A DNA stretch of 49,469 nt from Gluconobacter sphaericus NBRC 12467 (GTDB taxonomy: Bacteria; Pseudomonadota; Alphaproteobacteria; Acetobacterales; Acetobacteraceae), in NCBI RefSeq assembly GCF_006539125.1, contig NZ_BJMK01000014.1:1-49469 (forward strand), given 5' to 3'. Every line of letters starts with the position of its first letter. Position 1 is the first letter of the stretch. Below are positions 24,279 to 46,832 of the stretch, in pieces. Made by a program: the position numbers and the translations under genes. The notes beneath the pieces were generated by a model. The model ran no database searches, was not told the origin of the DNA, and was given only the letters and a program-made list of their open reading frames with translations.

Positions 24279-24303
24279 GACGAGAGACTTCCCTTGCAAT
24301 GAA

Positions 24304-25692: not shown

Positions 25693-25725
25693 ATCAGGAC
25701 CTCTCCTGCTTTCGAAAAGGCCAAG

Positions 25726-30548: not shown

Positions 30549-30693
30549 GACGCGATTCCTTTTCATAGTTCGATTATATTTGTTTCGTCACTTACATAAG
30601 GGGCCACTTTTGTAGATACCCCCTATAAACTATACCTGATATCCATTTACAAAAACTATCCAACTATGGTATATTCAGAACTGAATACCTGTT

Positions 30694-32019: not shown

Positions 32020-33797
32020 GCCTGCACCATTGGTCCGGGAGACTTCAGATAACGCTCCCTGATTGCCTTTGCAGACCAGTAAGCCAGAGCGGCAACGGTA
32101 CCCGTGGGATTATATCCGATGCCCTGCGGAAACGCTGATGATCCGATGACAAAAAGATTGGGCACTTCCCAATGCTGGAGATAGCGGTTGACCACACTAT
32201 CCTTGGGGGACGTTCCCATGATCGCGCCACCCGCGATATGCGTCGTCTGATAATGGCGCAGGTCGAATTCTTCTCCGAACTCCTTCGTCTCGATCGACAT
32301 CGATTCAGGCTTCATGGCCCGACCGATATCCGCCATCCGGTCTGTCACGTAGCGGATCATCTTCACATCGTTGTCATGCCAGTTAAACGTAATCCGCAGC
32401 AGCGGGCGCCCGGCAGTGTCACTGTATGTCGGATCAAGAGATAGGTAGCAGTCGCGAAATGCCATGTTGGTACCGTGGGCATGGATCGATATCGTATGCT
32501 GGAAGTTGTCCTTGACGGCTTTCTTCCAGTGCGCACCCCATTGCGGTGTCCCTTTGGGTACCGTGGCACTGCTGATCGGCTTGCTTCCGGCCTGATTGAC
32601 CCAGATGGGCGCGCCACCAACAAACCCCAGCGGCCCATGATCAAAATTATCCGCATTGAAATCATCGATGGCAACACCGTTGCCACCGGCCCCGATGAAC
32701 GGATTAGTGAATTTGTCCTGCCCGAAGAATAGCGTTACGCCGGATTCATTCTGATAGACGAAATTACGCCCAACAGTCCCCTCGCCCGTCTTGGGATCGT
32801 AAGGCTGTCCGATCCTAGACAAAAGAAGCAGATAGGGGTTGTTGTAGGCAAAACTGGCCAGAATGACGATATCGGCAGTCTGGCGAACTTCCTCCCCCTT
32901 GGACGTCCGATAGATCACGCCCGTTGCTTTCTTGCCCGATGAGTCCGTCTCGACCTTCAGGACGTCACACTCAGCACGCAACTCGAAACGACTTTCGCGC
33001 TCAAGTGCGGGAAAAATGTTCACATTCGGGGATGCCTTTGAGTAGTTGTAGCAGGCATAGCCGCTACAAAACCCACAGAACGTACAGGCTCCCATCTGGC
33101 ATCCATAAGGATTGGTATAGGCCTGTGACGCATTGGCTGACGGTATGCGGAAGGGATGATACCCACATTCCGCCGCGGCCTTGCTGTAAAGTTCGGCGGA
33201 ATAGGTGTTCTTCATGGCAGGTAACGGAAAAGGCGTTGAGCGGTCTGCGTCGAACGGGTTTCCATCTCCCACGATCTTGCCATTGACCTTGTAGGCCTGC
33301 CCCGAAGTTCCGAACACGCTTTCAGCAAAAGCAAAATGAGGCTCCAGTTCCTCATAAGACACACCCCAGTCCTGAATGGTCATGTCCTGAGGAATAAAGT
33401 CCTTTCCGTATCGTTCCTCGTAATGACTGCGCAGACGGAGCTCGGCCGGCGAGATACGCCAGTGGCATCCGGACCAGTGCAAACCAGCCCCACCGACCCC
33501 CGTGCCAGGAAGAAATGCGGCAAGCTGACGATAGGGCGCGGCCACGTCGCTTTCGCGGTGACGTACAGTCACCGTTGACTGCGAGGGCTGGAGAAAAAGG
33601 GCGTGCCGGGTGTTGTGCGTGAGTTCGTCGATTGACGACGGATAGGCGCCCTGGGGCCAAGTATCGCGACGTGGGCCGCGTTCGAGCGCCACCACGTTCA
33701 GCCCCGCCTGCGTCAGTTCCCGCGCCATAATGGCACCGACCCAGCCAAAACCCACAATCACCACATCCGTATGTTTCTCGCTACGGGAAACCATCAT
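32016..33797 (-). CDS. GMC flavoprotein subunit of dehydrogenase complex 1 (gluconate 2-dehydrogenase type)
   Basis: FAD-containing catalytic subunit, 593 aa, expected in the periplasm and carried across by its Tat-exported small partner, since it has no signal peptide itself. The FAD motif is VVIVGFGWVGAIMAREL; the C-terminal block HIAGGAIMG...VVNRYLQHW...FVIGSSAFPQG...NPTGTVAALAYW holds the catalytic His/Asn region. A cysteine-rich segment, CQMGACTFCGFCSGYAC, is typical of the gluconate 2-dehydrogenase branch and may hold an iron-sulfur cluster. It overlaps the genes on both sides by ATGA. Substrate is probably a sugar acid or polyol. Confidence 0.93.
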   Translation of the reverse strand: MMVSRSEKHTDVVIVGFGWVGAIMARELTQAGLNVVALERGPRRDTWPQGAYPSSIDELTHNTRHALFLQPSQSTVTVRHRESDVAAPYRQLAAFLPGTGVGGAGLHWSGCHWRISPAELRLRSHYEERYGKDFIPQDMTIQDWGVSYEELEPHFAFAESVFGTSGQAYKVNGKIVGDGNPFDADRSTPFPLPAMKNTYSAELYSKAAAECGYHPFRIPSANASQAYTNPYGCQMGACTFCGFCSGYACYNYSKASPNVNIFPALERESRFELRAECDVLKVETDSSGKKATGVIYRTSKGEEVRQTADIVILASFAYNNPYLLLLSRIGQPYDPKTGEGTVGRNFVYQNESGVTLFFGQDKFTNPFIGAGGNGVAIDDFNADNFDHGPLGFVGGAPIWVNQAGSKPISSATVPKGTPQWGAHWKKAVKDNFQHTISIHAHGTNMAFRDCYLSLDPTYSDTAGRPLLRITFNWHDNDVKMIRYVTDRMADIGRAMKPESMSIETKEFGEEFDLRHYQTTHIAGGAIMGTSPKDSVVNRYLQHWEVPNLFVIGSSAFPQGIGYNPTGTVAALAYWSAKAIRERYLKSPGPMVQA

Positions 33798-34522
33798 ACG
33801 CCTCCCTGCACGGCGTGACCGCCAACCGAGACGGGCGGAAGGGGATAGCGCGCACCATAACGATCGACCCAGTCGGTAAAATCCGCACGCGCACCGGGAA
33901 ACCCGATCATCTTCCAGGCTTCCATTTTGTAGTTCCCGCCATGTATCGGATCGGCGAAATAGCCTTCCTTACAGTTTTTCAGAATTTGCCCGAACAGCAG
34001 TTTCGACGATATCGGCGACAAAGTGAGCGTCCCCTTCTCCATCTGCCCGATGACCTGATCGCGCTCGCTGGCATCAAGCTGATGAAACAGCCTGCCATAA
34101 CGTTGCATTATCGCACCATTTAACGCCGGAAGCCCCTGTTTGTAGATATCTCTTGGCGTGAAAAGGAGCTGGTAGCCCAGCGTCGCCGATGTTTTCATCA
34201 AAGGCGGTCGCAAATACCATTCGCTGCCATGGCCGTAAGGCGTATTCATCTGACGATCAATGAATTCCGGCACGTGCGCCTCAATCGCTCCAGGCCCTTC
34301 CGCATCGGCCGGAATCAACCTGTCTACGAAGCTACTCAGCGTTCGCCATTCATCACTGGAAAAAAACACGGGCCGATAGACATATTCCGCATCGGCAGCC
34401 TCTGATACGCTGGCTGCGGGAAAATGGAAGAAAGCTGTCGTAACAAGGCCCAGCGCTGTTCCCTGAAGCATGGCACGACGACCACAGACCAGGGATCCGC
34501 CGCTTCGCGATTTGTCGCTCAT
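33794..34522 (-). CDS. Tat-exported small subunit of dehydrogenase complex 1
   Basis: Gluconate 2-dehydrogenase subunit 3 family, 242 aa from ATG 34522; the longer frame to 34594 is rejected. A twin-arginine signal (GRRAMLQGTALGLVTTAFF) precedes the mature domain with WRTLSSFVDRLIPADAEGPG, EFIDRQMNTPYG and YFADPIHGGNYKMEAWKMIGFPGAR, all family hallmarks. It is thought to chaperone and export the folded flavoprotein. It is the first of the three complex genes and lies 143 bases downstream of the racemase-like gene. Confidence 0.92.
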   Translation of the reverse strand: MSDKSRSGGSLVCGRRAMLQGTALGLVTTAFFHFPAASVSEAADAEYVYRPVFFSSDEWRTLSSFVDRLIPADAEGPGAIEAHVPEFIDRQMNTPYGHGSEWYLRPPLMKTSATLGYQLLFTPRDIYKQGLPALNGAIMQRYGRLFHQLDASERDQVIGQMEKGTLTLSPISSKLLFGQILKNCKEGYFADPIHGGNYKMEAWKMIGFPGARADFTDWVDRYGARYPLPPVSVGGHAVQGGV

Positions 34523-34665
34523 TCTCCAAACACCTTGTGAAATTCGACAACAGTGTCGTCCGAAAAATAACTGACAGAATGCCCATCGGGGCAAGTTCCC
34601 AAGGCACTGCCTCGCGCGCAGCTAAAATCATCCACAATGACGCCGATCAGCATCGTTTTCGGCAC

Positions 34666-35322
34666 TCAGGCATGCAGCAGCGAGCGCATCCGCTGAACGG
34701 CTGCTTCCGGAGCAGCCAGCACCGGAACATCAACAACAGCTTCCACGGCTTTAAGCGCCTGGGACGTCGAGAAATGGGCGAGCATGATCACATCACAATG
34801 CTTCAGACGCGGCGCGTATTCAGCAACGAGCCGGTTGTGTGTTTCAACATCACCACCTCTCAACGCCTCGATGGCATCGGGCACAATGATCGTTTCCAGC
34901 GTGGCCTCTGACGAGGCCTGTGCGCGGAAAGTCTCAAATTCCTTTTCCATAGTCACCACAGAAGGGGCGAATGTCGCCAACATGCCAATATGCATCCCTT
35001 TCTCCAGCGCTGCGCGGAACATGGCCTCATTGGGACGAAGCAACGGGATGGTCAGTTCGTTTTCCAGCAAGTCGATCGCCGGGCCAAATGCCGAACAGGT
35101 AACCAGCAGACCCTGTGCCTGCATGGACGCCCCATATTTCCCGAGCGTGACAAATCTCTGGGAGAGTTCCGGCGACAGATCGACGCTCTTCTTGCGATCA
35201 ATCGTCAATCCGTCATCAAGGAGATTGACAATCTCCGCCTCAGGCCAGAGGCGACGAAATGCGTCCTGAATAGGCACCATCGCCACCGGGGTCGCATGAA
35301 GAAGGACAATACGCTGGCTCAT
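34666..35322 (-). CDS. Asp/Glu/hydantoin racemase superfamily protein with one catalytic Cys
   Basis: Protein of 218 aa with the fold of aspartate/glutamate racemases, hydantoin racemases, maleate isomerases and arylmalonate decarboxylase. The first active-site Cys is present in GLLVTCSAFGPAID near residue 76. The second site, normally Cys in an L-G/A-C motif, reads VIMLAHFSTSQA, so there is no Cys there. A one-Cys enzyme cannot do a classical two-base racemisation, so decarboxylation, isomerisation or lysis is possible. A LacI-type operator lies 50 bases upstream, and the dehydrogenase complex follows on the same strand. Confidence 0.8.
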   Translation of the reverse strand: MSQRIVLLHATPVAMVPIQDAFRRLWPEAEIVNLLDDGLTIDRKKSVDLSPELSQRFVTLGKYGASMQAQGLLVTCSAFGPAIDLLENELTIPLLRPNEAMFRAALEKGMHIGMLATFAPSVVTMEKEFETFRAQASSEATLETIIVPDAIEALRGGDVETHNRLVAEYAPRLKHCDVIMLAHFSTSQALKAVEAVVDVPVLAAPEAAVQRMRSLLHA

Positions 35323-35371: not shown

Positions 35372-35385
35372 TGTAAGCGTTTTCA
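35372..35385. promoter_or_regulatory. LacI-type operator 1 (racemase/dehydrogenase 1 operon)
   Basis: TGTAAGCGTTTTCA, a near-palindrome with the central CG typical of LacI/GalR sites, 50 bases upstream of the racemase-like gene. One of six similar sites in this block. Confidence 0.75.
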
Positions 35386-35488
35386 TATACTGGCGCTTTT
35401 GGGCTTGCAAACTCATACCGAGCTTCTCACGAGAACGTAACTTTCTGGAAAAGAGGAATTACTCTCACAGGAAGCAACGCCCCGTCCC

Positions 35489-36517
35489 TTAGCTAATCTG
35501 TGGCACACCCTGCGTCGCGAGCGTCAGGCGGTATATGGAGGTATGGCACGCCATGAAAAGCTGGTTCCGGTGAACACCGCCGAAACACACATTTGGACAA
35601 CGTTCAGGCAAGTCGATATGCCCGATCTTCTTGGCTTGCGGGCTGAATATTGCCACCCCGTCCAGCCCCTCGCCCGAACCCCAGCCACACCAGAGATTTC
35701 CGTTGATATCTGCACGGAGACCGTCCGCCGCCCCCTCGGCACAATCCAGAAAAACGCGCCTGTTGGAGACTGTACCGTTCATGGCAACATCATACGCCCA
35801 TATTTGCCGATGAGGGGTATGACGGGAGGCGATCAGATACAGGATCTTTTCATCGGGAGAGAAGCAAAGACCGTTCGGTCCCGGCACATCATCGAGCACA
35901 GCCTCTGTCTTCCGTGTCCGCGGATCAATACGATAGACACGCGCAATCTGAACCGGTGACAGATCCCCTTCGGAAAAATTCGGCCCGAAAGCCGGATCGG
36001 TAAACCAAATGGCCCCATCAGTGGTGCAGACGATATCATTGGGAGAATTGAAAGGCTTGCCGTCGAAGCCGTCCGCAAGAACTGTAATATGACCATCGGC
36101 TTCCGTACGGGTGATGCGCCGGGTCGCACATTCGCAGGTCAGAAGCCGTCCCTGACGGTCCACCGTATTGCCATTCGAAAAATTCGATGGAGCCCGGAAT
36201 ACGGACGTTTCTCCCGTCGCCTCATCCCATTTCATGATACGATTACCCCTGATATCGCTGAACAGAAGAAGATTGGCTTCTCCCAGCCAAACCGGCCCTT
36301 CTGTCCACTCAAATCCGGTAGCGACCCGCTCTACAACAGACAGGTTGTTAACGCAGGCTTTGAACGCGGGGTCGAGGATCCTGATCGCGGGATCCGGCAA
36401 ACGCAGAGATGGCTGCCACATGCTCGCATGAGCGGCATGCCACGATGAAAGATACGTAGCTGCTGCCGCCAAGGACGCAGAACCAAGAAACGATCGACGC
36501 TTCAATGTGATGCTCAT
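35489..36517 (-). CDS. Tat-exported SMP-30/gluconolactonase family lactonase
   Basis: Six-bladed propeller hydrolase, 342 aa, that should open sugar lactones in the periplasm. The Tat signal is KRRSFLGSASLAAAATYLSS. Metal-site blocks of the SMP-30 family are present: FEWTEGPVWLGEANLLLFSDI (Glu ligand), NGNTVDRQGRLLTCEC, FNSPNDIVCTTDGAIWFTDP (Asn ligand) and GPNGLCFSPDEKILYLI (Asn-Gly). It diverges from another propeller gene, with a LacI-type operator 33 bases before its start. It would act on the lactone product of a periplasmic aldose dehydrogenase. Confidence 0.92.
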   Translation of the reverse strand: MSITLKRRSFLGSASLAAAATYLSSWHAAHASMWQPSLRLPDPAIRILDPAFKACVNNLSVVERVATGFEWTEGPVWLGEANLLLFSDIRGNRIMKWDEATGETSVFRAPSNFSNGNTVDRQGRLLTCECATRRITRTEADGHITVLADGFDGKPFNSPNDIVCTTDGAIWFTDPAFGPNFSEGDLSPVQIARVYRIDPRTRKTEAVLDDVPGPNGLCFSPDEKILYLIASRHTPHRQIWAYDVAMNGTVSNRRVFLDCAEGAADGLRADINGNLWCGWGSGEGLDGVAIFSPQAKKIGHIDLPERCPNVCFGGVHRNQLFMACHTSIYRLTLATQGVPQIS

Positions 36518-36549
36518 CTCACCCCCGCAGAGTGTCTTTCAACATGAGT

Positions 36550-36563
36550 TGAAAGCGTTTACA
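36550..36563. promoter_or_regulatory. LacI-type operator 2 (divergent lactonase/propeller promoter)
   Basis: TGAAAGCGTTTACA between the divergent genes at 36517 and 36641. It could control both, and through the second gene the LacI regulator itself, which follows 41 bases downstream. Confidence 0.75.
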
Positions 36564-36640
36564 TAGACAACCCCTGTATGCCACTATTCATTTTGTTATT
36601 TTCTTATCACTTTGTTGTTATTTATGGATAATAAATCACA

Positions 36641-37816
36641 ATGATATACTTCTCCTGCCAACACGCCAAACAGTCCCGAAAGCAGAAAACCCGATGCCTG
36701 ACGTCTGCCGCAGGAGCTATTTTGGGCGTATTTCTCGCGCATGGTGTTCATGCAGCAGACCACTGGGCTATTTCGGCAAATGACGGCCATACAACGACCA
36801 GTGCGACCGGAAAAATGGTCACTGCCGCGACGATAATTCCGGATAGCCTTTCCCTGATCCGGTTCGAACATGGCATGCCAGTGCTGGGAAAAACTCTCGT
36901 CCTGCCCACCTCAGTTGAGGGCCCACCGACAACAGCCTGGATCGCCCCGACTTCAAACTGGGCCATCGTCACAGCCGGCTCACACGCAGGGTCGCATGCG
37001 GGAGATCCCGTCATTGAGGACGATATCGTATCGGTGGTAAGCATCGAGCATGCCGTCCCCCGCCTCGTCCAGACAATTCATGCAGGCTTGGGCGCCAGTC
37101 AGGTCAGCGTGTCACCCGACCAGAAATGGGTGCTCATCGGGAACCGCAAAAGCGGAACAGTCTCAGTCTTTGCGGTCGCGAACAGACAGCTACACCCTGT
37201 CCAGACCTTGAACACGGGCGCGGACAGCAACCCCGCCTCAGTCCTCTTCTTGCCGGATGGGCAGCATGCGGTCGTCGTGCTGCGCGGCTTTCATCAACTT
37301 GCCCTCCTCCACAGGGTCGGGGACAGTTTCACAATAGAAGAAAAACGCCTCGACCTGGGCCGTTCCCCCAATACAATGGACATCACCAAAGCGGGCCTCC
37401 TCGCCATAGGAGATCAGGACCCTGCACGTCCTGCGGTGCATCTGGTGCGATTGGAAAACGGAATACTGAACCTGCTCGGTACGATACCGGTCGCACCAGG
37501 CCCTGAACCTCTCCGGTTTTCTCCAGACGGACGCTACCTCGCGGTGGGAGCGGTCAATAACTCCAACAAAGATGCTGCGAGACACGGGTCTCTCACACTC
37601 TATCGTGTTGACGGAAGCGACCTGACGCCTGTTGCACATGAAAACGTTGGACGCTGGCCACAGGGCATCATATTTTCTCCGGATGGTCGTACGCTTCTCG
37701 TACAAAACACGACCGACAAGACAATGACTGTTCTGAAATGGGACGGTATAAGACTGCATCCGACCGACACTCTTGCCATGACATCCGGACCGGCAGCGGC
37801 CGCAACGTCATGGTAG
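36641..37816 (+). CDS. Exported seven-bladed beta-propeller, lactonase-like
   Basis: Protein of 391 aa. A long basic leader and hydrophobic stretch (SAAGAILGVFLAHGVHA) form a Sec signal ending near residue 38. The mature part repeats propeller blades of the YVTN/Pgl lactonase type: VSVSPDQKWVLIGNRKSGTVSVF, ASVLFLPDGQHAVVVL, PLRFSPDGRYLAVGA and GIIFSPDGRTLLVQN. A short SHAG-SHAG duplication lies near residue 111. Enzymatic activity is not certain, since propellers of this type can also be binding proteins. It precedes the LacI gene, likely on the same transcript, and diverges from the Tat lactonase. Confidence 0.8.
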   Translation: MIYFSCQHAKQSRKQKTRCLTSAAGAILGVFLAHGVHAADHWAISANDGHTTTSATGKMVTAATIIPDSLSLIRFEHGMPVLGKTLVLPTSVEGPPTTAWIAPTSNWAIVTAGSHAGSHAGDPVIEDDIVSVVSIEHAVPRLVQTIHAGLGASQVSVSPDQKWVLIGNRKSGTVSVFAVANRQLHPVQTLNTGADSNPASVLFLPDGQHAVVVLRGFHQLALLHRVGDSFTIEEKRLDLGRSPNTMDITKAGLLAIGDQDPARPAVHLVRLENGILNLLGTIPVAPGPEPLRFSPDGRYLAVGAVNNSNKDAARHGSLTLYRVDGSDLTPVAHENVGRWPQGIIFSPDGRTLLVQNTTDKTMTVLKWDGIRLHPTDTLAMTSGPAAAATSW

Positions 37817-37857
37817 AGCCCTCTGGTCCGGCGACGGAAACATAAACGTTGAGCAGC

Positions 37858-38928
37858 ATGAACCCGGACCAGCCTTTGCCCAGAAAAAGCAGGAGTTCCA
37901 ACATCGATCGCCGTACGCGTCTTCCGGTCGCACAGGATGTCGCCCGGCTCGCCGGCGTTTCCATCGCCACCGTATCGCGTGCCCTGAACGAGCCTGAAAA
38001 AGTGCGACCGGCCACACGTGAAGCCGTCATGAAAGCAGCTGCAGAACTCGGATTCGTACTAAACAGCGCTGCCCGCGCGCTCAGCACGCGACGCTCCTCG
38101 ACAGTTGGCGTGATAGTCCCAAGCTATGGGAACGAGGTATTCGTACGAGCGCTCTCAAGTTTTCAACGGACGATGCGCGCCGCGAACTATCAGGTTCTGG
38201 CGGCCAGTTCGGAATACGATCTCGCGACAGAAATGCAGGAGGTTTCCTTTCTCTTGCAGCGCAGCGTTGATGGGCTGATGCTGGTCGGCGGCATTCATGA
38301 CCCTGACCTCTATACACGTGCGGAACGCAGTCAGGTGCCAATCATCCAGAGCTTCAGCCTCTCGGATCGTCACTACTGTGTCGGCTTCGATAACAGAGAA
38401 GCCACGTTCCGCGCTGCAAACTACCTGCTTGACCTCGGACACAAGCGGGTTGCAGTCGTCACTGGCACCCGTGAGAACAACGACCGTGCCGGACCACGTG
38501 CCGAAGGCGTTCGTCTGGCCATGGCAGAGCGCGGACTGGAGCTGATCCCGGCGCACGACCTGACTGTCTCGTCAGGGATTGTGGCAGGGCGGGATGCATT
38601 CGGTCAGCTGATGGGCGGTCCGGAAGAGCAGCGCCCAACAGCTATCATCTGCGGCACGGACGAGATTGCACTCGGCATCATGAGCGAGGCATCAGAGAGA
38701 GGCGTCGATATACCCCGATCCCTTTCCGTGATCGGCTTCAACGATTCAAGCTTCTCCGCTGTTCTCTCCCCCCCTCTGACGACCATTCGCGTCGACGCTG
38801 ACGAGATCGGAAAAATATCGGCCCTCGCCCTGCTCAATCTCATGAATGACAGAACAATGGTACAAATGACGCGGATTACACCAGAGCTCGTCCTGCGGGG
38901 CACCGTGGCGCCCCCGGCCAAGCTCTGA
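37858..38928 (+). CDS. LacI-family transcriptional regulator, probable master of this block
   Basis: Regulator of 356 aa from ATG 37858; a TTG three codons upstream is less likely. The helix-turn-helix is VAQDVARLAGVSIATVSRALNEPEKVRPATREAVMKAA, including the hinge region that inserts into a central CG step. Residues 80-350 are a periplasmic-binding-protein-like effector domain (TVGVIVPSYGNEVFVRAL, FDNREATFRAANYLLDLGHKRVAVV, IICGTDEIALGIMSEASERG, VIGFNDSSFSAVLSPPLTTI). It is the only LacI protein in the window and is surrounded by six matching operators between 35372 and 44149. The ligand is probably a sugar acid or lactone. Confidence 0.93.
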   Translation: MNPDQPLPRKSRSSNIDRRTRLPVAQDVARLAGVSIATVSRALNEPEKVRPATREAVMKAAAELGFVLNSAARALSTRRSSTVGVIVPSYGNEVFVRALSSFQRTMRAANYQVLAASSEYDLATEMQEVSFLLQRSVDGLMLVGGIHDPDLYTRAERSQVPIIQSFSLSDRHYCVGFDNREATFRAANYLLDLGHKRVAVVTGTRENNDRAGPRAEGVRLAMAERGLELIPAHDLTVSSGIVAGRDAFGQLMGGPEEQRPTAIICGTDEIALGIMSEASERGVDIPRSLSVIGFNDSSFSAVLSPPLTTIRVDADEIGKISALALLNLMNDRTMVQMTRITPELVLRGTVAPPAKL

Positions 38929-38953
38929 AAAACTGACTCAACGCAGATCCCAT

Positions 38954-40207
38954 TCAGACCATGATGGCCCCTGCCCTCCTGACGAAGCTTTCGTCCAACT
39001 CTTCGACTGAATTGACGCCCAGCATCGCCATGTCGCGCAGGATTTCATCGCGCATGATCGTGTAAGCATGTTCTACGCCCCGCTGACCGTCATAGGCTGC
39101 TGCGAAAAGAAAAGGCCGCCCCATCAGCGTAAAATCAGCTCCCAACGCCAAAGCCTTCAGGACGTCAGAGCCGCGGCGAATACCGCCATCGATGATAACT
39201 TTCATCTCTCCCTTTCTCGATGCGACCTCTGGCAGAACACGCAGAGGGGCCATCGCGTGATCGAGCTGACGACCACCGTGGTTGGAAAGAATAATGCCAT
39301 CCGCACCATGATCCCGCGCCATAAAAGCATCATGCGGCGAGATGATGCCCTTGATGACCAGCGGCCCTTTCCAGCGCTTGCGAATAAACGCGATATGCTC
39401 CCAGGTCAGCTTGTCCCGGGCAACGGTGTTACGCACTTTGCGTGACATCATCGGCGGACCACGATCCGCCTCCGTATTTTCAAAATGCGGCGCGCCATGT
39501 TTCAGGAACGTTCTGGCTACAGTCCCTAGAAGCCAACGTGGGTGGGTTGCGCTCTGCACCATCACCCTGGGTGTAATCCGGATCGGCATCGAGAACCCCG
39601 ACCGGATATTATGTTCGCGATTACCGAGTATCGGCGTATCGACCGTAACGACGAGATTTCTGTAACCAGCGGCTTCAACCCGATCGAGCATACGCGCAAT
39701 ACGGTCGAAATCCCCCGCCAGATATCCCTGAAACCATGCGTCAGGATTGACGGCGATGACGTCCTCCAACCGGATCAATGAAGATGCGCTCAGAATCATA
39801 GGGATGTTGCATGACCGTGCCGCAGCCGCCAGAGCAAGATCCGCGCGATAGGCCACGAACGCCGCTCCGCCCAGCGGACCAATCGAAAATGGCGCAGAGT
39901 ACGTTTTTCCGAACAGATTCGTCTGCGTCGAGCGAGCAGATGTATCGACCAGTGCACGCGGTGTAAAACCATAATCCTGATAGGCTTGGCGACCATTACG
40001 CATGGCACTTTCTGTTTCCACGCCGCCAGCCACATACTGATAAATCATACGCGGCAGGAACGGCTTGCAGTGCCGCTCAAAGTCATCCAGCGCCAAAATG
40101 TCCCGCAAACGAGCAGGCAAAACCCGAGAAGTTGCCTTGAACGCAGTAGGAAGAGAGGGAGCAATAGCCTGTGGAAGGCCATCAGTCGTCTTCATAATGT
40201 CACCCAT
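38954..40207 (-). CDS. FMN-dependent alpha-hydroxy-acid oxidase/dehydrogenase
   Basis: Cytosolic or membrane-associated flavoenzyme of the L-lactate dehydrogenase/glycolate oxidase family, 417 aa. Family signatures are FLPRMIYQYVAGGVETESAMR, the VVTVDTPILGNREHNIRSGF block, and the active-site ILSNHGGRQLDHA with the catalytic His and Arg, then VIIDGGIRRGSDVLKALALGADFTLMGRP for FMN phosphate. ATG 40207 has GGAG 11 bases upstream; ATG 40195 is an alternative. A LacI-type operator lies 33 bases upstream. The likely role is oxidation of an alpha-hydroxy acid made by the surrounding pathway. It converges with the LacI gene. Confidence 0.92.
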   Translation of the reverse strand: MGDIMKTTDGLPQAIAPSLPTAFKATSRVLPARLRDILALDDFERHCKPFLPRMIYQYVAGGVETESAMRNGRQAYQDYGFTPRALVDTSARSTQTNLFGKTYSAPFSIGPLGGAAFVAYRADLALAAAARSCNIPMILSASSLIRLEDVIAVNPDAWFQGYLAGDFDRIARMLDRVEAAGYRNLVVTVDTPILGNREHNIRSGFSMPIRITPRVMVQSATHPRWLLGTVARTFLKHGAPHFENTEADRGPPMMSRKVRNTVARDKLTWEHIAFIRKRWKGPLVIKGIISPHDAFMARDHGADGIILSNHGGRQLDHAMAPLRVLPEVASRKGEMKVIIDGGIRRGSDVLKALALGADFTLMGRPFLFAAAYDGQRGVEHAYTIMRDEILRDMAMLGVNSVEELDESFVRRAGAIMV

Positions 40208-40239
40208 TTACAGACATGCTCCTGCATTCAAAATAATTA

Positions 40240-40253
40240 TGTAAACCCTTACA
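40240..40253. promoter_or_regulatory. LacI-type operator 3 (hydroxy-acid oxidase promoter)
   Basis: TGTAAACCCTTACA, a near-perfect palindrome, 33 bases upstream of the oxidase start. The centre is CC rather than CG, but the arms match the other sites. Confidence 0.65.
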
Positions 40254-40502
40254 TTGATCTTACGTCTCCCTCTTACCCACTTGCAAGAGAGGCGGAGCTT
40301 GTCCACGGATTGGCACCTGACCGCAGATACGGCATTCCCACCCCAAAGATATGGCATTAAACTATTGTTTTTGCATATTTTTTTATAATTATTCTTATTT
40401 TAAAGCGTAACTGTTCGCGTAGAATCACTCTTCAAGCATTCCAGAATCACGCAAAAATGAGCAATGTTTTACAGAGCAGCATTAGCGATCCCGAAAAATG
40501 CA

Positions 40503-40516
40503 TGTAATCGTTTCCA
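40503..40516. promoter_or_regulatory. LacI-type operator 4 (cytosolic lactonase promoter)
   Basis: TGTAATCGTTTCCA, 44 bases upstream of the lactonase ATG at 40560. It is the most degenerate of the six in the left arm but keeps TGTAA-TCG-TTT-CA. Confidence 0.6.
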
Positions 40517-40559
40517 AAATCTGTCACGGACTTCCATTTATCGCACGACAGGAGAGCCT

Positions 40560-41648
40560 ATGCCTTCCGGATTTCTAGCCTATGTTGGCTGCTACACGAC
40601 GGCGGAGCGACACGCGCATGGCGACGGCATCAACGTCTATCATGTGGACGAGACACTAACGACGTGGCGGCATCTTCAGAATATGCCGACACACGATAAT
40701 CCCTCGTTTCTGTCACTTGATCGGAGCGGGCACTATCTCTGCGCCGTTCATGGAGATCGCAACCATATCTCGTCTTATGCCATTGATCCCCGTACCGGTC
40801 TGATCGAACACAGATCTGGCGTCGAATGCGGCGGACAGAATCCCGTACACCTCGCCTTCGATACCGCCAACCGCTTCATCGTCATCCCGAACTATGCAGA
40901 TGGCACTCTCACATCCGTGTCTTTCGATGCAGCGACCGGCATACTCAGCACAGTCACCTCTTCCGAAACACTCCCCGGCGAGCGCGGCCCCCACCGACTT
41001 GAACAGCATTGCTCCCATCCTCATGGTGTAACGTTCGATCCGGCAGAACGCTTTGTGTACGTCCCGGATAAAGGTCTGGACCGTATTTTCGTGTTCAGGT
41101 TCCACGAAGGTCATTTGCAATGTGTTAGCAACGTGCCGACACGCGAAGGAGCAGGCCCCAGGCATATCGCCTTTCATCCCGCCAAGCCCTACGCCTATGT
41201 CATCAACGAACTTGACTGTACGGTAACGTACTATCGCCATAACCGGGAAACGGGTGAGCTAACCCCCCAACAGACTGTTCTGGCCCTTCCGGAGCACTAC
41301 ACCGGAAACGGCAGAGGAGCAGAAATCGCACTTTCTCCGGACGAAACCTCCGTCCTCGTTTCCCTTAGGGGTGCTGATATACTGAGTGTCCTTTCCATCG
41401 ACGACGATACTGGAACGCTCTTGCTTACCCAATCGATCGACAGCGGAGGCAAAACGCCGCGTTTCTTTTCTGTTGTCGCATCCGCATCAACGATTCTGGT
41501 CGCACACGAAACCTCGGACACAATAGGGCGCGTCGCCCTGACGGCGCAGGGGCTGGACATCGCGGGTATTCAGCACTGCGTAAAAGTTGCCAGCCCGAGC
41601 TGCATTGTGCTCAAGCCAGCGCCGGACGAACCAGACCGCAACATCTGA
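40560..41648 (+). CDS. Cytosolic lactonase, 6-phosphogluconolactonase (Pgl) beta-propeller family
   Basis: Seven-bladed propeller enzyme, 362 aa. ATG 40560 is chosen because AGGAG lies just upstream and MPSGFLAYVGCYTTAERHAHGDGINVY is the usual start; the longer frame to 40464 would cover the operator. Blades show SFLSLDRSGHYLCAVHGD, VHLAFDTANRFIVIPNYADGTLTS, HCSHPHGVTFDPAERFVYVPDKGLDRIFVF, GPRHIAFHPAKPYAYVINELDCTVTYY and EIALSPDETSVLVSLRG, all typical of the family. There is no signal peptide. It likely opens a lactone inside the cell. It faces the OprB gene across a terminator-like hairpin. Confidence 0.9.
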   Translation: MPSGFLAYVGCYTTAERHAHGDGINVYHVDETLTTWRHLQNMPTHDNPSFLSLDRSGHYLCAVHGDRNHISSYAIDPRTGLIEHRSGVECGGQNPVHLAFDTANRFIVIPNYADGTLTSVSFDAATGILSTVTSSETLPGERGPHRLEQHCSHPHGVTFDPAERFVYVPDKGLDRIFVFRFHEGHLQCVSNVPTREGAGPRHIAFHPAKPYAYVINELDCTVTYYRHNRETGELTPQQTVLALPEHYTGNGRGAEIALSPDETSVLVSLRGADILSVLSIDDDTGTLLLTQSIDSGGKTPRFFSVVASASTILVAHETSDTIGRVALTAQGLDIAGIQHCVKVASPSCIVLKPAPDEPDRNI

Positions 41649-41652
41649 AAAC

Positions 41653-41674
41653 TGTTGCCTGCCACAGGCAAACA
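41653..41674 (-). terminator. Probable terminator of the ModA-like/OprB unit
   Basis: TTGCCTG and CAGGCAA form a 7-base stem around CCA, extended by flanking TG/CA. On the minus strand it is followed by a short GTTTTC tract. It lies between the convergent lactonase and OprB genes. Confidence 0.5.
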
Positions 41675-41684
41675 ACACCCTTAC

Positions 41685-43145
41685 CTAGAAAATCTGGACT
41701 GTCGATTTGAAGCCCAAAACATGTGCAGTCCGCAGGTTTTTTTGTCCGTTCGGGTTGAAGAAGATCTGGTAATCCGGGGCGATAGCGACGCCGCGGGTCA
41801 CCTGAATCTGATAATTAACTTCGAAAACAGCGGCATTTTTCTGTACACCCGTTGCATGATTAGGCAGCAGCCGGGCGGCACCCTCATCAAGATAATTCGC
41901 CTCCGTAGCGCTCACGCCACCAGCAATTTTTTCGTACATACCGATGAAATTCAGAGCATCATGAGGACGCGAGCGGATAAACCCACGATTGATAAAACCG
42001 AAATAAGTCTCCCAGCGCCGCAGGGCGACACGTGGATCATTGAGAATAAATCCGCCAATCAGCGTGGTGCCCGAAGAAGCGGGCGCTCCCTGCGGTTGCC
42101 ATATTTTCTGATCCGTTTCAAACCACGCGCTCCAGCTCCGGCTATGCTGCATGGCCTTTTTGCGCGTCACGCTCAGGGGTAGACCGTTGATATCGTAATA
42201 GTTGTCCGAGAGCGGAACAGTCAGGAGACGCGCACCAATCTTATAGTGCCCAGCAAGCTTGTGCTTTGCACCAAACTCGGGCTCCCACCCCAGTTCGATC
42301 GGTATGGACTGCCCCATGATGGCCGACCCACCACTGAATTTGAAGCCGCTCCGGTTATAGGCATTGGCGAACATGCTTTTCTCGGGGAAATAGACAGCCG
42401 CCTGAATGTAGGTGTAGCGCGAGGGGCGACCACGAACGCGGGTTCCCCAGACACCAGCAGGATAGCGACCAATATAGTCATTATCACTCACCGCACGGGG
42501 ACGGCCGCACAGGCTGTTGTTGATGAAATTGCAGAACAAGGGCGAGTTGGAAAAATCTGACATTTCAGTCATACGGCCGCCCGCAATCGCCAACCGGCCA
42601 CCAAAGAGATTTTCCTCGCCATAAGCCATGACCAGGTGAACAACGACATTGCCACCACCGCCATAGATTTCCGATGCGTGCCCCAACCAGTCACCGAACA
42701 TCCGGTTAGCAGTCGTACCATACCGGCTCGTAAAAACCGCATGTGTCGCAAAACCCCGCAAGCCGATCAGCTTATCCCAGTTCATATGCAAAACCGTACT
42801 GATCTGCCCGGCATTGCTTGCTCCCTGGCGATAGTTTCTGAAGCCTGGCGTGGGCCTGGTGACGGCTCCCGTAAATTCATTGGTGTTGGATACCAGCAAT
42901 GCAATGCCGTGCGCCCGCAGCCATGCCCGCACACCGAAAAAATCGGGCACAAACGCGGGAGGATTTTCAAACGGCGGCACCACCGGCCCGCTCAGCGGGG
43001 TCGCGGGAAGAGGCTTTGCGACCCGAACGCTGGCATCATAGGTCGGCTCGGCCTCCTGAATCGTCTGTGCATACGCGGAACCACAGGATAGGGCAGCAAT
43101 ACCGATCAGCAACGCTGCCGGACGCCTCACCAAACCAGAAGTCAT
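41685..43145 (-). CDS. OprB-family carbohydrate-selective porin
   Basis: Outer-membrane beta-barrel for sugar entry, 486 aa from ATG 43145; the upstream extension overlaps the preceding gene. The signal peptide is PAALLIGIAALSCGSAYAQ. OprB features include WLRAHGIALLVSNTNEFTGAV, NMNWDKLIGLRGFATHAVF-type segments, a short SLCGRPRAVSD loop, VALRRWETYFGFINRGFI and the terminal aromatic VLGFKSTVQIF with C-terminal Phe required for BAM recognition. It lies 19 bases downstream of the ModA-like gene and shares its LacI-type operator. Confidence 0.92.
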   Translation of the reverse strand: MTSGLVRRPAALLIGIAALSCGSAYAQTIQEAEPTYDASVRVAKPLPATPLSGPVVPPFENPPAFVPDFFGVRAWLRAHGIALLVSNTNEFTGAVTRPTPGFRNYRQGASNAGQISTVLHMNWDKLIGLRGFATHAVFTSRYGTTANRMFGDWLGHASEIYGGGGNVVVHLVMAYGEENLFGGRLAIAGGRMTEMSDFSNSPLFCNFINNSLCGRPRAVSDNDYIGRYPAGVWGTRVRGRPSRYTYIQAAVYFPEKSMFANAYNRSGFKFSGGSAIMGQSIPIELGWEPEFGAKHKLAGHYKIGARLLTVPLSDNYYDINGLPLSVTRKKAMQHSRSWSAWFETDQKIWQPQGAPASSGTTLIGGFILNDPRVALRRWETYFGFINRGFIRSRPHDALNFIGMYEKIAGGVSATEANYLDEGAARLLPNHATGVQKNAAVFEVNYQIQVTRGVAIAPDYQIFFNPNGQKNLRTAHVLGFKSTVQIF

Positions 43146-43164
43146 GATTCTTGCTTCCCACGTT

Positions 43165-43860
43165 TCACTGGGGCTCAAGACCGGATTTCCTGAATCGCTC
43201 CGTGGACTTTGGCTGCCGCAGGAATGAGAGAAATGCCTCGACCTTTTCCCTCTGCGGACTGTCAACCAGAGGTGCTCCCGAGAAAAGCGTGACCTTCTGA
43301 ATTTCTTCAGGGAACGTCCCTACAATCTCGGTCCCTTCTATCGCCAGGAGTTCACTGACCTGCTGCACCGCGATATCCGCCTCACCCGTTCGCAGCTTCT
43401 CCGCGGAAAATCCGCTAGGAATACGCGTCGCCCGGGCATTGACCGCTTCTGCAATGCCGAGCCGTTCAAGCAGGGGAGCAAAGTACACACCGCTCTGGCC
43501 GCCCAAGGAATAGGCAACAGAGCGGGCGTTCAGCAACGTGTTCTTGAAAGCCTTGACCGTTGCTATATCCGGATGCTCAGCTCCACTGGAAACACCGATA
43601 CCGATTTTTGAGGCCACGAGCGGTATCAAAGCGTCAGACGCAACGATCCCCTCCCTCACGAGTCCTGCCAACGCATCATCTGTAACGATGACACCATCAG
43701 GCCTACTTCCCTTTTCGAGGGAGGCAAGAATAACTGTTGTAGGCGCCCATTCGATAACCGGCTCAAAGCCTGTTTTTTCCATAAAATCATGGAGAATTCC
43801 GTCATCGAACGCCCCTTTAACAACCAGGGCGACACTCAGCGAAAACTGTTCCCGTGACAT
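43165..43860 (-). CDS. ModA-like substrate-binding-fold protein without signal peptide
   Basis: Protein of 231 aa with the type II periplasmic-binding-protein fold seen in molybdate-binding ModA. Segments such as FMEKTGFEPVIEWAPTTVILASLEKG, DGVIVTDDALAGLV, LLNARSVAYSLGGQSGVYFAPLLERLGIAEAVNARAT and GEADIAVQQVSELLAIEGTEIVGTFPEEIQ fit that family. It begins MSREQFSLSVALVV with no export signal, and no ABC permease or ATPase genes are near. It probably acts in the cytosol as an enzyme accessory or sensor. It leads the operon with OprB, with a LacI-type operator 79 bases upstream. Confidence 0.82.
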   Translation of the reverse strand: MSREQFSLSVALVVKGAFDDGILHDFMEKTGFEPVIEWAPTTVILASLEKGSRPDGVIVTDDALAGLVREGIVASDALIPLVASKIGIGVSSGAEHPDIATVKAFKNTLLNARSVAYSLGGQSGVYFAPLLERLGIAEAVNARATRIPSGFSAEKLRTGEADIAVQQVSELLAIEGTEIVGTFPEEIQKVTLFSGAPLVDSPQREKVEAFLSFLRQPKSTERFRKSGLEPQ

Positions 43861-43939
43861 AAGCGTTTATCTCCTGTGCGCAGATGAAAAATGTGAATCA
43901 CGTCGGCCTTTTGAAAATTCCAGGCTGCTCGCCACTCAA

Positions 43940-43953
43940 TGAAAACGCTTACA
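43940..43953. promoter_or_regulatory. LacI-type operator 5 (ModA-like/OprB promoter)
   Basis: TGAAAACGCTTACA, 79 bases upstream of the ModA-like gene. The arms and central CG match the other sites. Confidence 0.75.
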
Positions 43954-44135
43954 CCCACTATTTTCTTTTGCGGTAAACACGTGTATGTTACGTTTATAAC
44001 AATAAAATGGAATTTCCAGCTAAATATCTAAAATATGGTGCTATTTTTGTTTCCAGCGATCGCAGAAATCCTCTCATGCCTACATCCCTTCCCCTGATTC
44101 ACGCTTTTGCGATTGTTAGAACAGCATTCATGTGA

Positions 44136-44149
44136 TGTAAGCGCTTTCT
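44136..44149. promoter_or_regulatory. LacI-type operator 6 (MFS/dehydrogenase 2 promoter)
   Basis: TGTAAGCGCTTTCT, 74 bases upstream of the MFS GTG start. The AAGCGCTT core is a perfect palindrome. Confidence 0.75.
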
Positions 44150-44223: not shown

Positions 44224-45528
44224 GTGACAAAAGGCCGCTACAGACTTGTAATTGCCGCTCTACTTTTTGCTCTGGGAATGATCAATTATACTGATCGTGC
44301 CGCTGTCGGAATTCTAGCACCTCAAATACAGCGCGATCTACACATTACACCCTCACAGCTTGGTTGGGTGTTTAGTGCTTTCTTCTTCAGCTACGCGATA
44401 TTCTCGTTTCTAGGTGGATACCTGTCTGACAAATTCGGACCAAAACGCACCTTTGGTGTTGCCGTCGTAAGTTGGTCGATTTTCTGCTCGCTGACAGGGG
44501 CCGTCGCAACCCTCGCCCCCCTCATCCTCGTACGTCTGTTCTTTGGTGCTTCTGAGGGGCCTATGAATTCCACCACGAACCGAACGGTCACGAACTGGTT
44601 TCCCAGAAAGGAAACGGCTCGCGCCCTAGGTTTCACGCTCTCGGGGCAGAATCTCGGAAGTGCGGTGGCTGCGCCACTGGTGATTTCTCTGGGTTATTTC
44701 TTTGGTTGGCGCCTGGCATTCGTCGCTCTCGGCGCCATCGGTGTTCTTTGGTGCGTTCTGTGGCTCAGATTTGCATCCGATCGCCCGGCGGAAAGCCGAC
44801 ATGTTACCCCCGAAGAACTGGCGCATATCACGTCTGACCGCTCGGAAGCCGTCCTCCCCAAAGGCAGTGCGCCCCTGAAGAATTATATTTTGCGGAGATC
44901 CACCTGGGGTCTGGCTCTGGGGCTGTTTGCCCTTCTTTACCCCCTCTATATTTTTGTCTCGTGGATGCCCAGTTACTTCACAAATGTCATGCACGTCACA
45001 CCGACAGGCCTTTCCGTTGCAGCTGGCGTTCCATGGGTTGGTGGGTTTCTGGGATATTTTCTTGGTGGATTCATTTCTGACCTATTTTTCAAACGTAGCG
45101 AAAATGGTCTGAAAGCGCGCAAAACAACCACAATCGCGCCTCTTCTTCTGGCCACGGTCACACTCTCCGCCATCCCGAGCATTCAGTCTGTTAGTGCAGC
45201 AGTGATACTTTTCACCTTATCGCTCTTCGCACTGTCGATGGCGACCCAGTCGCTCTGGGCGATGATCCATGAAGTAACGCCGGTCATCTATATGGGGACC
45301 GTCGGCGGCTTCATCCATTTCCTGGCCAACATGTCCGGTGTCGTTGCTCCTGCACTGACCGGCTACGTCATCGAACATGCAGCCAGCGGATATGCATCCG
45401 CTTTCTGGATTGCTGCTGGCATCGGAGTTTGTGGGGCGCTGAGCATGCTGCTGCTGGTGCAGAACAAGAGAATTCCATCGCATGAGCACACCTCGTCCAC
45501 CGCTCCTCTGACGACGGGACATCCATGA
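44224..45528 (+). CDS. MFS transporter, anion:cation symporter (ACS) family, sugar-acid permease
   Basis: Inner-membrane permease of 434 aa with 12 helices, like the glucarate/galactonate carriers GudP and DgoT. Motifs: INYTDRAAVGILAPQIQRDLHI in helix 1, SYAIFSFLGGYLSDKFGPKR between helices 2 and 3, and LFFGASEGPMNSTTNRTVTNWFPRKETARALG in helix 4 and its loop. The start codon is GTG with GAGGTG upstream. The stop overlaps the cytochrome start by ATGA, which ties uptake to dehydrogenase complex 2. Its promoter carries a LacI-type operator. Confidence 0.92.
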   Translation: MTKGRYRLVIAALLFALGMINYTDRAAVGILAPQIQRDLHITPSQLGWVFSAFFFSYAIFSFLGGYLSDKFGPKRTFGVAVVSWSIFCSLTGAVATLAPLILVRLFFGASEGPMNSTTNRTVTNWFPRKETARALGFTLSGQNLGSAVAAPLVISLGYFFGWRLAFVALGAIGVLWCVLWLRFASDRPAESRHVTPEELAHITSDRSEAVLPKGSAPLKNYILRRSTWGLALGLFALLYPLYIFVSWMPSYFTNVMHVTPTGLSVAAGVPWVGGFLGYFLGGFISDLFFKRSENGLKARKTTTIAPLLLATVTLSAIPSIQSVSAAVILFTLSLFALSMATQSLWAMIHEVTPVIYMGTVGGFIHFLANMSGVVAPALTGYVIEHAASGYASAFWIAAGIGVCGALSMLLLVQNKRIPSHEHTSSTAPLTTGHP

Positions 45529-46832
45529 TGCGAAAGACATCCTTCCCCCGCTCTACCAGAGCCACCCTCTACCTTGTGGCATACTCAGGTGTTGCCGCAC
45601 TGATGGCCACTCTGCCCGATGCACGAGCGGAAGATGCAGGGCTGGTTGAAAAAGGGCGCTACATCGCGACCGCCGCTGACTGCTTTGCCTGCCATACTTC
45701 GCCTGGAGGCAAACCCTTTGCAGGCGGTTATCCGATCACGACACCGGTTGGGACAATCTATTCGACCAATATCACCCCTGCCCCCAGAACAGGCATTGGC
45801 AACTACACGAAGGCAGAGTTCTTCGATGCTGTGCGCCGAGGTGTCGGGCACGGCAACAAGCGCCTCTACCCGGCCATGCCCTATACATCCTACGCAGGCG
45901 TGACGGATAGCGACATGGAGGCACTTTACGCTTTCTTTAATTCGGCGGTTGCACCTGTCGAACAAGAAAACAAGCCCGATACCGTACGGTTCCCATTCAA
46001 CATCCGCTCGGGGCTTGTGCTATGGAACTGGCTTTATCTTGATACACGTCCGTTCCAGGCGCAGCCGCGGGAAACGCCACAGATTACGCACGGCCGTTAT
46101 CTGGTCAATCACCTCGAACATTGCGGCACATGCCACACACCGCGCACCATATTCATGGGACCGGCGAGTATGCGTTATCTGGCAGGCTCGTCTGTGGGCG
46201 CATGGTATGCCCCCAATATCACCACAGACAAGGTCGCCGGCATCGCCGATTGGACGGACGACGATCTCAGGAATTATCTAAAGACCGGCCATGCGCTGAA
46301 CAAAGGTCAAGCGGCTGGCCCCATGGCGGAAGTCGTCACGAACAGCACCCAGTTTCTTACTTCCAATGACGTTAATGCCATGATTGCCTATCTGCGAGAG
46401 GTTCCAGCGGTCGCAAGCGACGAAAAACGTTCACGGACGTCTTACGGCACTGCAGATCGACCGGAAGACGCGGCACGCGGGCAGGCCAGTCCTGAAGACA
46501 GGGGCTGGAAAATTTTCAGCGGCTCCTGCGCATCCTGTCATCAGGCGGAAGGACAGGGCATCAACGCCTACCCCTCCCTGACGCACAACTCCACCACTGG
46601 AAGCCCCAATGCACGTAACCTCGTGGCAACCATCCTGACGGGCGTCGAACGGCGGAGCGGTGACAATTCGGTCTTCATGCCTGCCTTCGGATCCGGCGCA
46701 CTTTGGGTCAATCGTCTTTCGGATCAGGATATCGCGGATCTCAGCAATTTCATTCTGAAGACCTTCGGCAACCCATCGGTCCAGGTCGACGCCAGTTATG
46801 TCGCGAAACAACGCGCGGCACTTACGCCATGA
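45525..46832 (+). CDS. Triheme cytochrome c subunit of dehydrogenase complex 2
   Basis: Membrane cytochrome of 435 aa, homologous in layout to the one at 30694-32019. A signal peptide (YLVAYSGVAALMATLPDARA) is followed by three heme sites: CFACH, CGTCH and CASCH. The STNITPAPRTGIGNYTKAEFFDAVRRGV and YPAMPYTSYAGVTDSDMEALYAFF blocks are typical. It should pass electrons from the flavoprotein to ubiquinone. It is first among the complex genes here (cytochrome-small-large), unlike complex 1 (small-large-cytochrome). The small-subunit gene follows after 35 bases. Confidence 0.93.
   Translation: MMRKTSFPRSTRATLYLVAYSGVAALMATLPDARAEDAGLVEKGRYIATAADCFACHTSPGGKPFAGGYPITTPVGTIYSTNITPAPRTGIGNYTKAEFFDAVRRGVGHGNKRLYPAMPYTSYAGVTDSDMEALYAFFNSAVAPVEQENKPDTVRFPFNIRSGLVLWNWLYLDTRPFQAQPRETPQITHGRYLVNHLEHCGTCHTPRTIFMGPASMRYLAGSSVGAWYAPNITTDKVAGIADWTDDDLRNYLKTGHALNKGQAAGPMAEVVTNSTQFLTSNDVNAMIAYLREVPAVASDEKRSRTSYGTADRPEDAARGQASPEDRGWKIFSGSCASCHQAEGQGINAYPSLTHNSTTGSPNARNLVATILTGVERRSGDNSVFMPAFGSGALWVNRLSDQDIADLSNFILKTFGNPSVQVDASYVAKQRAALTP

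Follow-up and report, generated by a model that had tools for sequence, protein, structure and literature searches.

We analysed a 49,469-nucleotide stretch of Gluconobacter sphaericus NBRC 12467 (contig NZ_BJMK01000014.1, positions 1 to 49,469), referred to below as the window, and in particular a block of genes at 30.7-49.0 kb in which six 14-bp operator-like sites surround a gene for a LacI-family repressor. The block encodes two flavin-cytochrome dehydrogenases, several lactonase-type proteins, a flavin mononucleotide (FMN)-dependent 2-hydroxyacid dehydrogenase, proteins with Asp/Glu-racemase and ModA folds, a porin and a transporter of the major facilitator superfamily (MFS); a tetronate operon lies beside it (Table 1). 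An earlier note, made from the letters of the DNA only, had claimed that the six sites define one regulon for periplasmic oxidation of sugars or sugar acids. As far as sequence comparison can tell, the sites are common palindromic operators that stand upstream of their target genes and are conserved in relatives alongside the regulator, and they are best read as a single LacI regulon.

The six sites were recovered at the places where the earlier note had put them, as was the single LacI gene in the middle of the block. Operators 1, 2 and 5 are exact copies of TGWAANCGNTTWCA, and operators 3, 4 and 6 have one mismatch each. This pattern was then searched for across the genome to which the window belongs, which comprises 97 contigs and 3,059,744 bases. 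Exact matches occur at three places, all of them inside the block. At up to one mismatch there are 16 places genome-wide, six of which are inside the block; the binomial probability of six out of 16 falling within 8,778 bases is about 4e-12, a value that is low partly by construction, the six sites themselves having supplied the pattern. The looser centre TGWAANCSNTTWCA has five exact places, four in the block and one on contig C45. No further regulon member was found at up to one mismatch: the remaining ten of the 16 places all lie within open reading frames (ORFs) of at least 80 codons, which were called mechanically, so that their status as genes is uncertain for some and that of the ORF on C45 is doubtful. 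At two mismatches, the matches to TGWAANCGNTTWCA are mostly noise genome-wide (252 places versus 152 for the reversed control), and two-mismatch matching restricted to the window was likewise rejected as too noisy (24 matches versus 13.8 expected).

The sites had been described as lying in promoter gaps. This holds for operators 1, 2, 3, 5 and 6, which are intergenic, whereas operator 4 lies within the longest ORF (ATG 40464). It ends 44 bases upstream of ATG 40560, which is the likelier start of the lactonase gene because single-base gaps occur between the two ATGs in the alignment of related species. Similarly, most of the sites are palindromes with a central CG, as had been claimed, but the centre of operator 3 is CC; since the same centre is found in three other species, a central CG is not required. 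The gene for the lactonase-like beta-propeller is separated from lacI downstream of it by only 32 bases, and for this reason lacI is probably autoregulated through operator 2. Scans for promoter and terminator consensus sequences barely exceeded shuffled sequences (8 versus a mean of 5.7, and 11 versus 9.0, respectively).

Within the genus, the LacI gene is present in five of 26 genomes (E <= 1e-40), namely that of the window and those of G. kanchanaburiensis, G. cerevisiae, G. japonicus and G. kondonii. The order of the block is unchanged in the first three of these relatives, with the G. cerevisiae contig stopping inside the block. We aligned the promoters of three regions from four species and of a fourth region from three species. 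Invariant columns make up 75 of 84 within the sites versus 490 of 921 elsewhere (Fisher P 1e-11, with columns treated as independent). Across the five LacI-bearing genomes, the block accounts for 13 of the 15 exact sites, compared with a total of 19 in the 21 genomes without LacI. In G. japonicus the LacI gene (L064/L065, contig C30, 14961-16038) is split into two overlapping pieces, with block and operators present, which represents either a frameshift or a sequencing error.

G. kondonii provides a useful test of the regulon because its block is rearranged. In this genome, a row of MFS, lactonase, cytochrome, small-subunit and flavoprotein genes is preceded by an exact operator. Its distance is 57 bases if the longest ORF is taken, and about 108 from the start that is likelier. 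Another exact site leads a row consisting of the racemase-fold gene, the genes of the kinase OtnK and the decarboxylase OtnC, and the small-subunit, flavoprotein and cytochrome genes. The LacI gene itself shares a small contig with the genes for the FMN dehydrogenase and the cupin-like protein, and a site lies between LacI and the FMN dehydrogenase. Beside these three genes there is also a transposase-like ORF (L066, contig C42, 3320-4027), which fits a rearranged block.

For comparison across genera, we scanned named genomes with an alignment of the racemase-fold protein and took the best 80 of 409 confirmed relatives, of which 76 are outside Gluconobacter. Sites were searched with a matrix derived from the six operators (14.5 bits), using 200 palindrome-preserving permutations as a control. 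Outside Gluconobacter, 41 of 43 LacI-bearing loci contain sites, 117 in total, against 1.05 on average and at most 16 for the permuted matrices; note that many of these 43 loci are closely related (Pantoea and Methylobacterium groups) and hence are not independent. In Pantoea, Erwinia, Tatumella, Methylobacterium and others, the sites adjoin the genes for LacI, the FMN dehydrogenase and the racemase-fold protein. Together with the promoter alignments, these loci confirm that the sites are kept in related genomes beside the same genes, a check that had been suggested in advance. Gene content was counted by homology to the window proteins within 10-kb flanks, some of which were ended by the contig. 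Among the 76 loci, a ModA-fold protein is found in 66, the FMN dehydrogenase in 50 and LacI in 44 (by a looser rule than that used for the 43 loci above). The wider core of the system is LacI, the FMN 2-hydroxyacid dehydrogenase, the Asp/Glu-racemase-fold protein and the ModA-fold protein. In L081, L082 and other Pantoea/Erwinia loci, lacI is preceded by a pair of operator-like sites near 6716 and 6748, spaced by 32 bases, and this pair recurs in many of these loci.

Table 1. Predicted features of the window, in order along the stretch
Feature	Position	Strand	Family, placement and conservation
Tetronate operon beside block: OtnI, GntP permease, OtnC, OtnK, LtnD	23481..28570	-	NCBIfam cut-offs passed for LtnD, OtnK, OtnC, OtnI
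Two-domain cupin-like protein, probably secreted	29829..30566	-	AlphaFold model pLDDT 86
Dehydrogenase-1 cytochrome c subunit	30694..32019	-	PF00034
Dehydrogenase-1 flavoprotein, gluconate-2-dehydrogenase lineage	32016..33797	-	PF05199, PF00732
Dehydrogenase-1 small subunit	33794..34594	-	PF13618 Gluconate_2-dh3
Asp/Glu-racemase-fold protein	34666..35322	-	PF01177; model pLDDT 91.7
Operator 1	35372..35385		50 bases upstream of racemase-fold gene/dehydrogenase-1 operon; 12/14 columns invariant, 4 species
SMP-30/gluconolactonase-type lactonase, probably exported	35489..36517	-	PF08450; closest solved 3dr2, 3e5z
Operator 2	36550..36563		Between divergent SMP-30 lactonase and propeller-lacI genes; 13/14 columns invariant, 4 species
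Beta-propeller, lactonase-like	36641..37816	+	PF10282
LacI-family repressor	37849..38928	+	PF00356 helix-turn-helix and PF13377 periplasmic-binding-protein-like domain, both over cut-off
FMN-dependent 2-hydroxyacid dehydrogenase	38954..40207	-	PF01070; closest solved lactate oxidase, mandelate dehydrogenase
Operator 3	40240..40253		Upstream of FMN 2-hydroxyacid dehydrogenase gene, CC centre; 12/14 columns invariant, 4 species
Operator 4	40503..40516		Upstream of second lactonase (likely start 40560); 13/14 columns invariant, 4 species
7-bladed lactonase, 6-phosphogluconolactonase type	40560..41648	+	PF10282
OprB porin	41685..43145	-	PF04966; start at 43145 by inspection
ModA-fold protein, apparently without signal peptide	43165..43860	-	PF13531 from residue 17 of 231
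Operator 5	43940..43953		Upstream of ModA-fold protein/OprB operon; 14/14 columns invariant, 3 species
Operator 6	44136..44149		Upstream of MFS/dehydrogenase-2 operon; 11/14 columns invariant, 3 species
MFS transporter, galactonate-transporter type	44224..45528	+	PF07690; TIGR00893 best but below cut-off
Dehydrogenase-2 cytochrome c subunit	45525..46832	+	PF00034
Dehydrogenase-2 small subunit	46868..47413	+	PF12318 FAD-SLDH
Dehydrogenase-2 flavoprotein, glucose/fructose/ketogluconate dehydrogenase lineage	47403..49034	+	Closest solved 8hdd, 6a2u, 7w2j

Three LacI-family genes were found in the window's genome, including that of the block. The second is on contig C23, beside an OprB-like ORF and between clusters of ketogluconate-type and gluconate-type dehydrogenase genes. 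The ORFs of 222 + 552 and 592 + 442 codons on this contig are near the lengths given for ketogluconate and gluconate dehydrogenase subunits in the available part of PMC9692623. No block-type operator above 12.6 bits was found in 17 kb around this cluster.

In dehydrogenase-1, genes for a PF13618 small subunit, a GMC flavoprotein and a cytochrome c stand side by side, which suggests an enzyme built like gluconate 2-dehydrogenase. The window flavoproteins, when compared with the gluconate/ketogluconate dehydrogenase copies on C23, are 60% (dehydrogenase-1) and 43% (dehydrogenase-2) identical to their relatives. A dehydrogenase-1-like three-gene set was also observed near cytochrome c maturation genes in Klebsiella pneumoniae (L156); the genes surrounding dehydrogenase-1 relatives in Klebsiella and Azotobacter offered no hint of a substrate.

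Three further proteins are characterized mainly by fold. In the racemase-fold protein, Cys76 is the sole invariant cysteine, and His183 in an AHFS motif is nearly invariant (28 aligned sequences, one of them partial). Asp/Glu racemases use two catalytic cysteines, and one-cysteine relatives exist too; the AHFS histidine presumably occupies the position where racemases carry the second cysteine. The name "racemase" in the earlier note is thus better taken as a fold label, given the one invariant cysteine. Among the 50 Foldseek matches listed for the model, at 13 to 19% identity, those to 2gzm, 2zsk and 2eq5 have probability 1.00, which supports the predicted fold. The ModA-fold protein has no export signal recognizable by eye in 18 aligned N-termini, and Pfam shows no ABC partner genes for it among the block proteins. 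A role as aconitate isomerase was considered and set aside; literature searches on it gave nothing useful. The cupin-like gene is separated from dehydrogenase-1 by a gap of 127 bases and may or may not belong to the operon; it is found in 22 of the 80 loci, all 22 with LacI. Its product has no Pfam match, although Cupin_2 is matched by eight of the 23 members in the alignment (best E 3.7e-5). The Foldseek matches listed for its model are mostly cupin-fold entries with template modelling (TM) scores of about 0.4-0.6; the top match is a seed storage vicilin, and oxalate decarboxylase and BacB come among those that follow, with TM of about 0.5-0.6 and a large root-mean-square deviation. For all three proteins, solved structures yield folds only.

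The cytosolic end of the system emerges from the other genera. In 36 of the 76 loci, a gene for a kinase resembling 3-oxo-tetronate kinase starts directly after the racemase-fold gene. Overall, an OtnK-like kinase is found in 38 loci, an OtnC-like decarboxylase in 33 and an OtnI-like isomerase in 34, so that a kinase or decarboxylase is present in 38 and both in 33, as judged by homology. A count of loci with any of the three (57 of 76) leans on OtnI-like genes and is superseded by the kinase-or-decarboxylase count. The kinases and decarboxylases of three such clusters, in one Pantoea, in G. kondonii and in one Hyphomicrobiales genome, pass the cut-offs for OtnK and OtnC. An LtnD-like gene is present in the window's tetronate operon and in only one of the 76 loci; because of this rarity, the FMN dehydrogenase may replace LtnD as the entry enzyme. 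It is possible that the tetronate operon of the window is the end of the pathway there. We looked for a LacI operator of its own for this operon, but the best site, of 11.6 bits, is within the LtnD gene and was rejected.

We propose the following model. LacI would repress the promoters of the block through the TGWAARCGYTTWCA-like sites that closely precede the genes, until it is released by an inducer, either a sugar acid or a product of it. In the periplasm, the sugar acid (or its lactone) would be oxidised by two membrane-bound flavin-cytochrome dehydrogenases together with a lactonase, and the porin and the MFS importer would carry the oxidation product inward. In the cytosol, the FMN dehydrogenase and the racemase-fold and ModA-fold proteins would turn it into a four-carbon keto acid, from which OtnK and OtnC would make dihydroxyacetone phosphate. 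Since the kinase gene follows the racemase-fold gene in those 36 loci, and since kinase and decarboxylase genes are in an operator-led row with dehydrogenase-1 in G. kondonii, the probable role of the block is periplasmic oxidation of a sugar acid, with dihydroxyacetone phosphate as the end point. What the comparisons show directly is that the sites exist, are conserved and occur together with LacI, and that the racemase-fold gene is linked to OtnK/OtnC. We hold the model as a whole, from LacI repression to dihydroxyacetone phosphate, with reasonable though not high confidence. A broader version is put forward tentatively and may well be wrong: that this is an undescribed pathway across Alpha-, Gamma- and Betaproteobacteria, in which periplasmic oxidation of a sugar acid is followed by a secreted two-domain cupin, a one-cysteine racemase-fold protein and a cytosolic ModA-fold protein, all with new activities, that deliver a four-carbon keto acid to OtnK/OtnC. 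As for the earlier note, its proposal that one LacI coordinates the block is strongly supported, at the level of sequence, by the conservation of the sites within the genus and across genera. Its pathway reading stands in part: periplasmic oxidation is likely, judging from the families of the two dehydrogenases and the lactonase at 35489, and the cytosolic end had been missed.

Several observations weigh against this model. Operator 6 is the weakest of the six, with one extra base inside it in two relatives and the left half intact. When the Gluconobacter loci are included, two of the 45 LacI-bearing loci have no site at all, and seven of the 35 loci scored as LacI-less contain 15 sites (permuted mean 0.93, maximum 8). 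Ten of these 15 are in L076, where LacI is split, L079, which is G. kondonii with LacI on another contig, and L080, where the contig is cut short; the other five are in L111, L114, L121 and L134, of which L121 has a LacI-like gene below the identity threshold. LacI at E <= 1e-60 is found in just 29 of 299 genomes of the family. Within the 10-kb flanks of the 76 loci, neither the SGL lactonase nor the propeller nor the dehydrogenase-1 flavoprotein was found, and the dehydrogenase-2 flavoprotein was found in three. At the cytosolic end, the window's tetronate operon lacks a strong operator, and an OtnI-like protein of Hyphomicrobiales (a single protein from outside the window) scores 261 bits against the OtnI cut-off of 325, compared with 384 for the window protein. 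A kinase or decarboxylase is equally common in loci with LacI (22 of 44) and without it (16 of 32); the linkage is therefore to the racemase-fold gene and not to LacI as such. Finally, repression, the direction of control, the inducer and the order of the steps are what we infer from genome comparison.

An explanation that we consider unlikely, but to which we still give some weight, is that the block is one LacI regulon with the tetronate genes as mere neighbours. The block would then be a second copy of the oxidation of gluconate to ketogluconate and diketogluconate, with its cytosolic genes serving something else. Dehydrogenase-1 does belong to the gluconate-2-dehydrogenase lineage and dehydrogenase-2 to that of the ketogluconate, fructose and glucose dehydrogenases, a similar second set in G. 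sphaericus is called gluconate/ketogluconate dehydrogenase homologues in the available part of PMC9692623, and half of the 76 loci have no kinase or decarboxylase gene. However, in G. kondonii a single operator-led row holds OtnK and OtnC together with the racemase-fold gene and dehydrogenase-1, the kinase directly follows the racemase-fold gene in nearly half of the loci elsewhere, and a canonical-looking dehydrogenase pair is already present on C23 near another LacI.

The sites themselves might be bound by another regulator, with the block LacI controlling only itself and a few genes. Many LacI proteins bind sites of this shape, and in G. kondonii the block sites are on a different contig from lacI. 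Nevertheless, we regard this as very improbable: just three LacI-family genes were found in the genome, sites are present in 43 of the 45 LacI-bearing loci, and the C23 cluster, which has a LacI of its own, has no such sites. That the matches merely reflect chance or shared base composition could be argued from the loose matches in the window and from the genome-wide two-mismatch counts of the pattern and its reversed control, both given above, but this is already contradicted by exact matches that are confined to the block, conserved as footprints and recurrent across genera, and we give it almost no credence.

If the proposed model is true, a regulator, an operator and a gene set are defined for a pathway of plant-associated bacteria and of a genus used for making vitamin C precursors, and growth tests become a route to the substrate of the pathway. 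In addition, three conserved proteins would be marked as likely enzymes of one pathway, and a native repressor-operator pair would be available for Gluconobacter.

The closest known system in its working is that of PtxS in Pseudomonas. According to the available part of PMC3402500, PtxS is a LacI-family repressor of its own promoter and of the gad and kgu operons for the use of gluconate and 2-ketogluconate; it recognizes one 14-bp palindrome, TGAAACCGGTTTCA, and its effector is 2-ketogluconate. The system proposed here would be similar as a LacI repressor over sugar-acid genes. In contrast to TGAAACCGGTTTCA, the sites of the block are TGWAARCGYTTWCA-like, and unlike the PtxS regulon, the block encodes dehydrogenases of two lineages, lactonases, an FMN dehydrogenase and racemase-fold and ModA-fold proteins. 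General family scans recognized no kgu family among the block proteins, and no dedicated kgu search was made. In Gluconobacter sp. CHM43, two LacI genes close to the gene of a 2-ketogluconate reductase have been likened to PtxS by the authors (PMC11837542). This locus, which we set beside the block by description only, belongs to the same genus and is similar in that a ketogluconate gene is accompanied by LacI-family, transporter and porin genes, and differs in being a reductase system for 2-ketogluconate assimilation.

As for the dehydrogenases, the available part of PMC9692623 describes a second, divergent gluconate/ketogluconate dehydrogenase set in G. sphaericus SJF2-1, in one cluster of which the cytochrome gene precedes the small-subunit gene, as in dehydrogenase-2 here, and six such dehydrogenases in two lineages for G. 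sphaericus; a regulator is not mentioned in that part. The gluconate 2-dehydrogenase and 2-ketogluconate dehydrogenase of Gluconobacter have the same three-subunit make-up as the enzymes of the block. In the L-ascorbate pathway of Cupriavidus necator, gluconolactonase-family and WD40-like proteins reportedly act on a sugar-acid lactone, and this pathway is said to run via lyxonate and not through OtnK/OtnC. Searches of an open-access library, at the level of result lists and the opening lines of abstracts, turned up no account of this regulon or of this gene set.

The catabolism of L-threonate and D-erythronate by LtnD, OtnI, OtnK and OtnC also yields dihydroxyacetone phosphate at its end (PMC12540250, available part). 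Similarly, OtnK and OtnC are in one cluster in G. kondonii, Pantoea and Hyphomicrobiales, and they are adjacent in the window, there without a LacI site. The difference is that FMN dehydrogenase, racemase-fold and ModA-fold proteins are encoded near the kinase in many of the 76 loci; since LtnD is rare as well, the entry steps appear to differ from those of the threonate pathway. On a Pantoea agglomerans plasmid (L159), a different racemase-fold subfamily (51% identical) occurs near genes for OtnK, an aldolase, an aconitase, an isocitrate-dehydrogenase-like protein and a lactonase, and perhaps represents a sister pathway.

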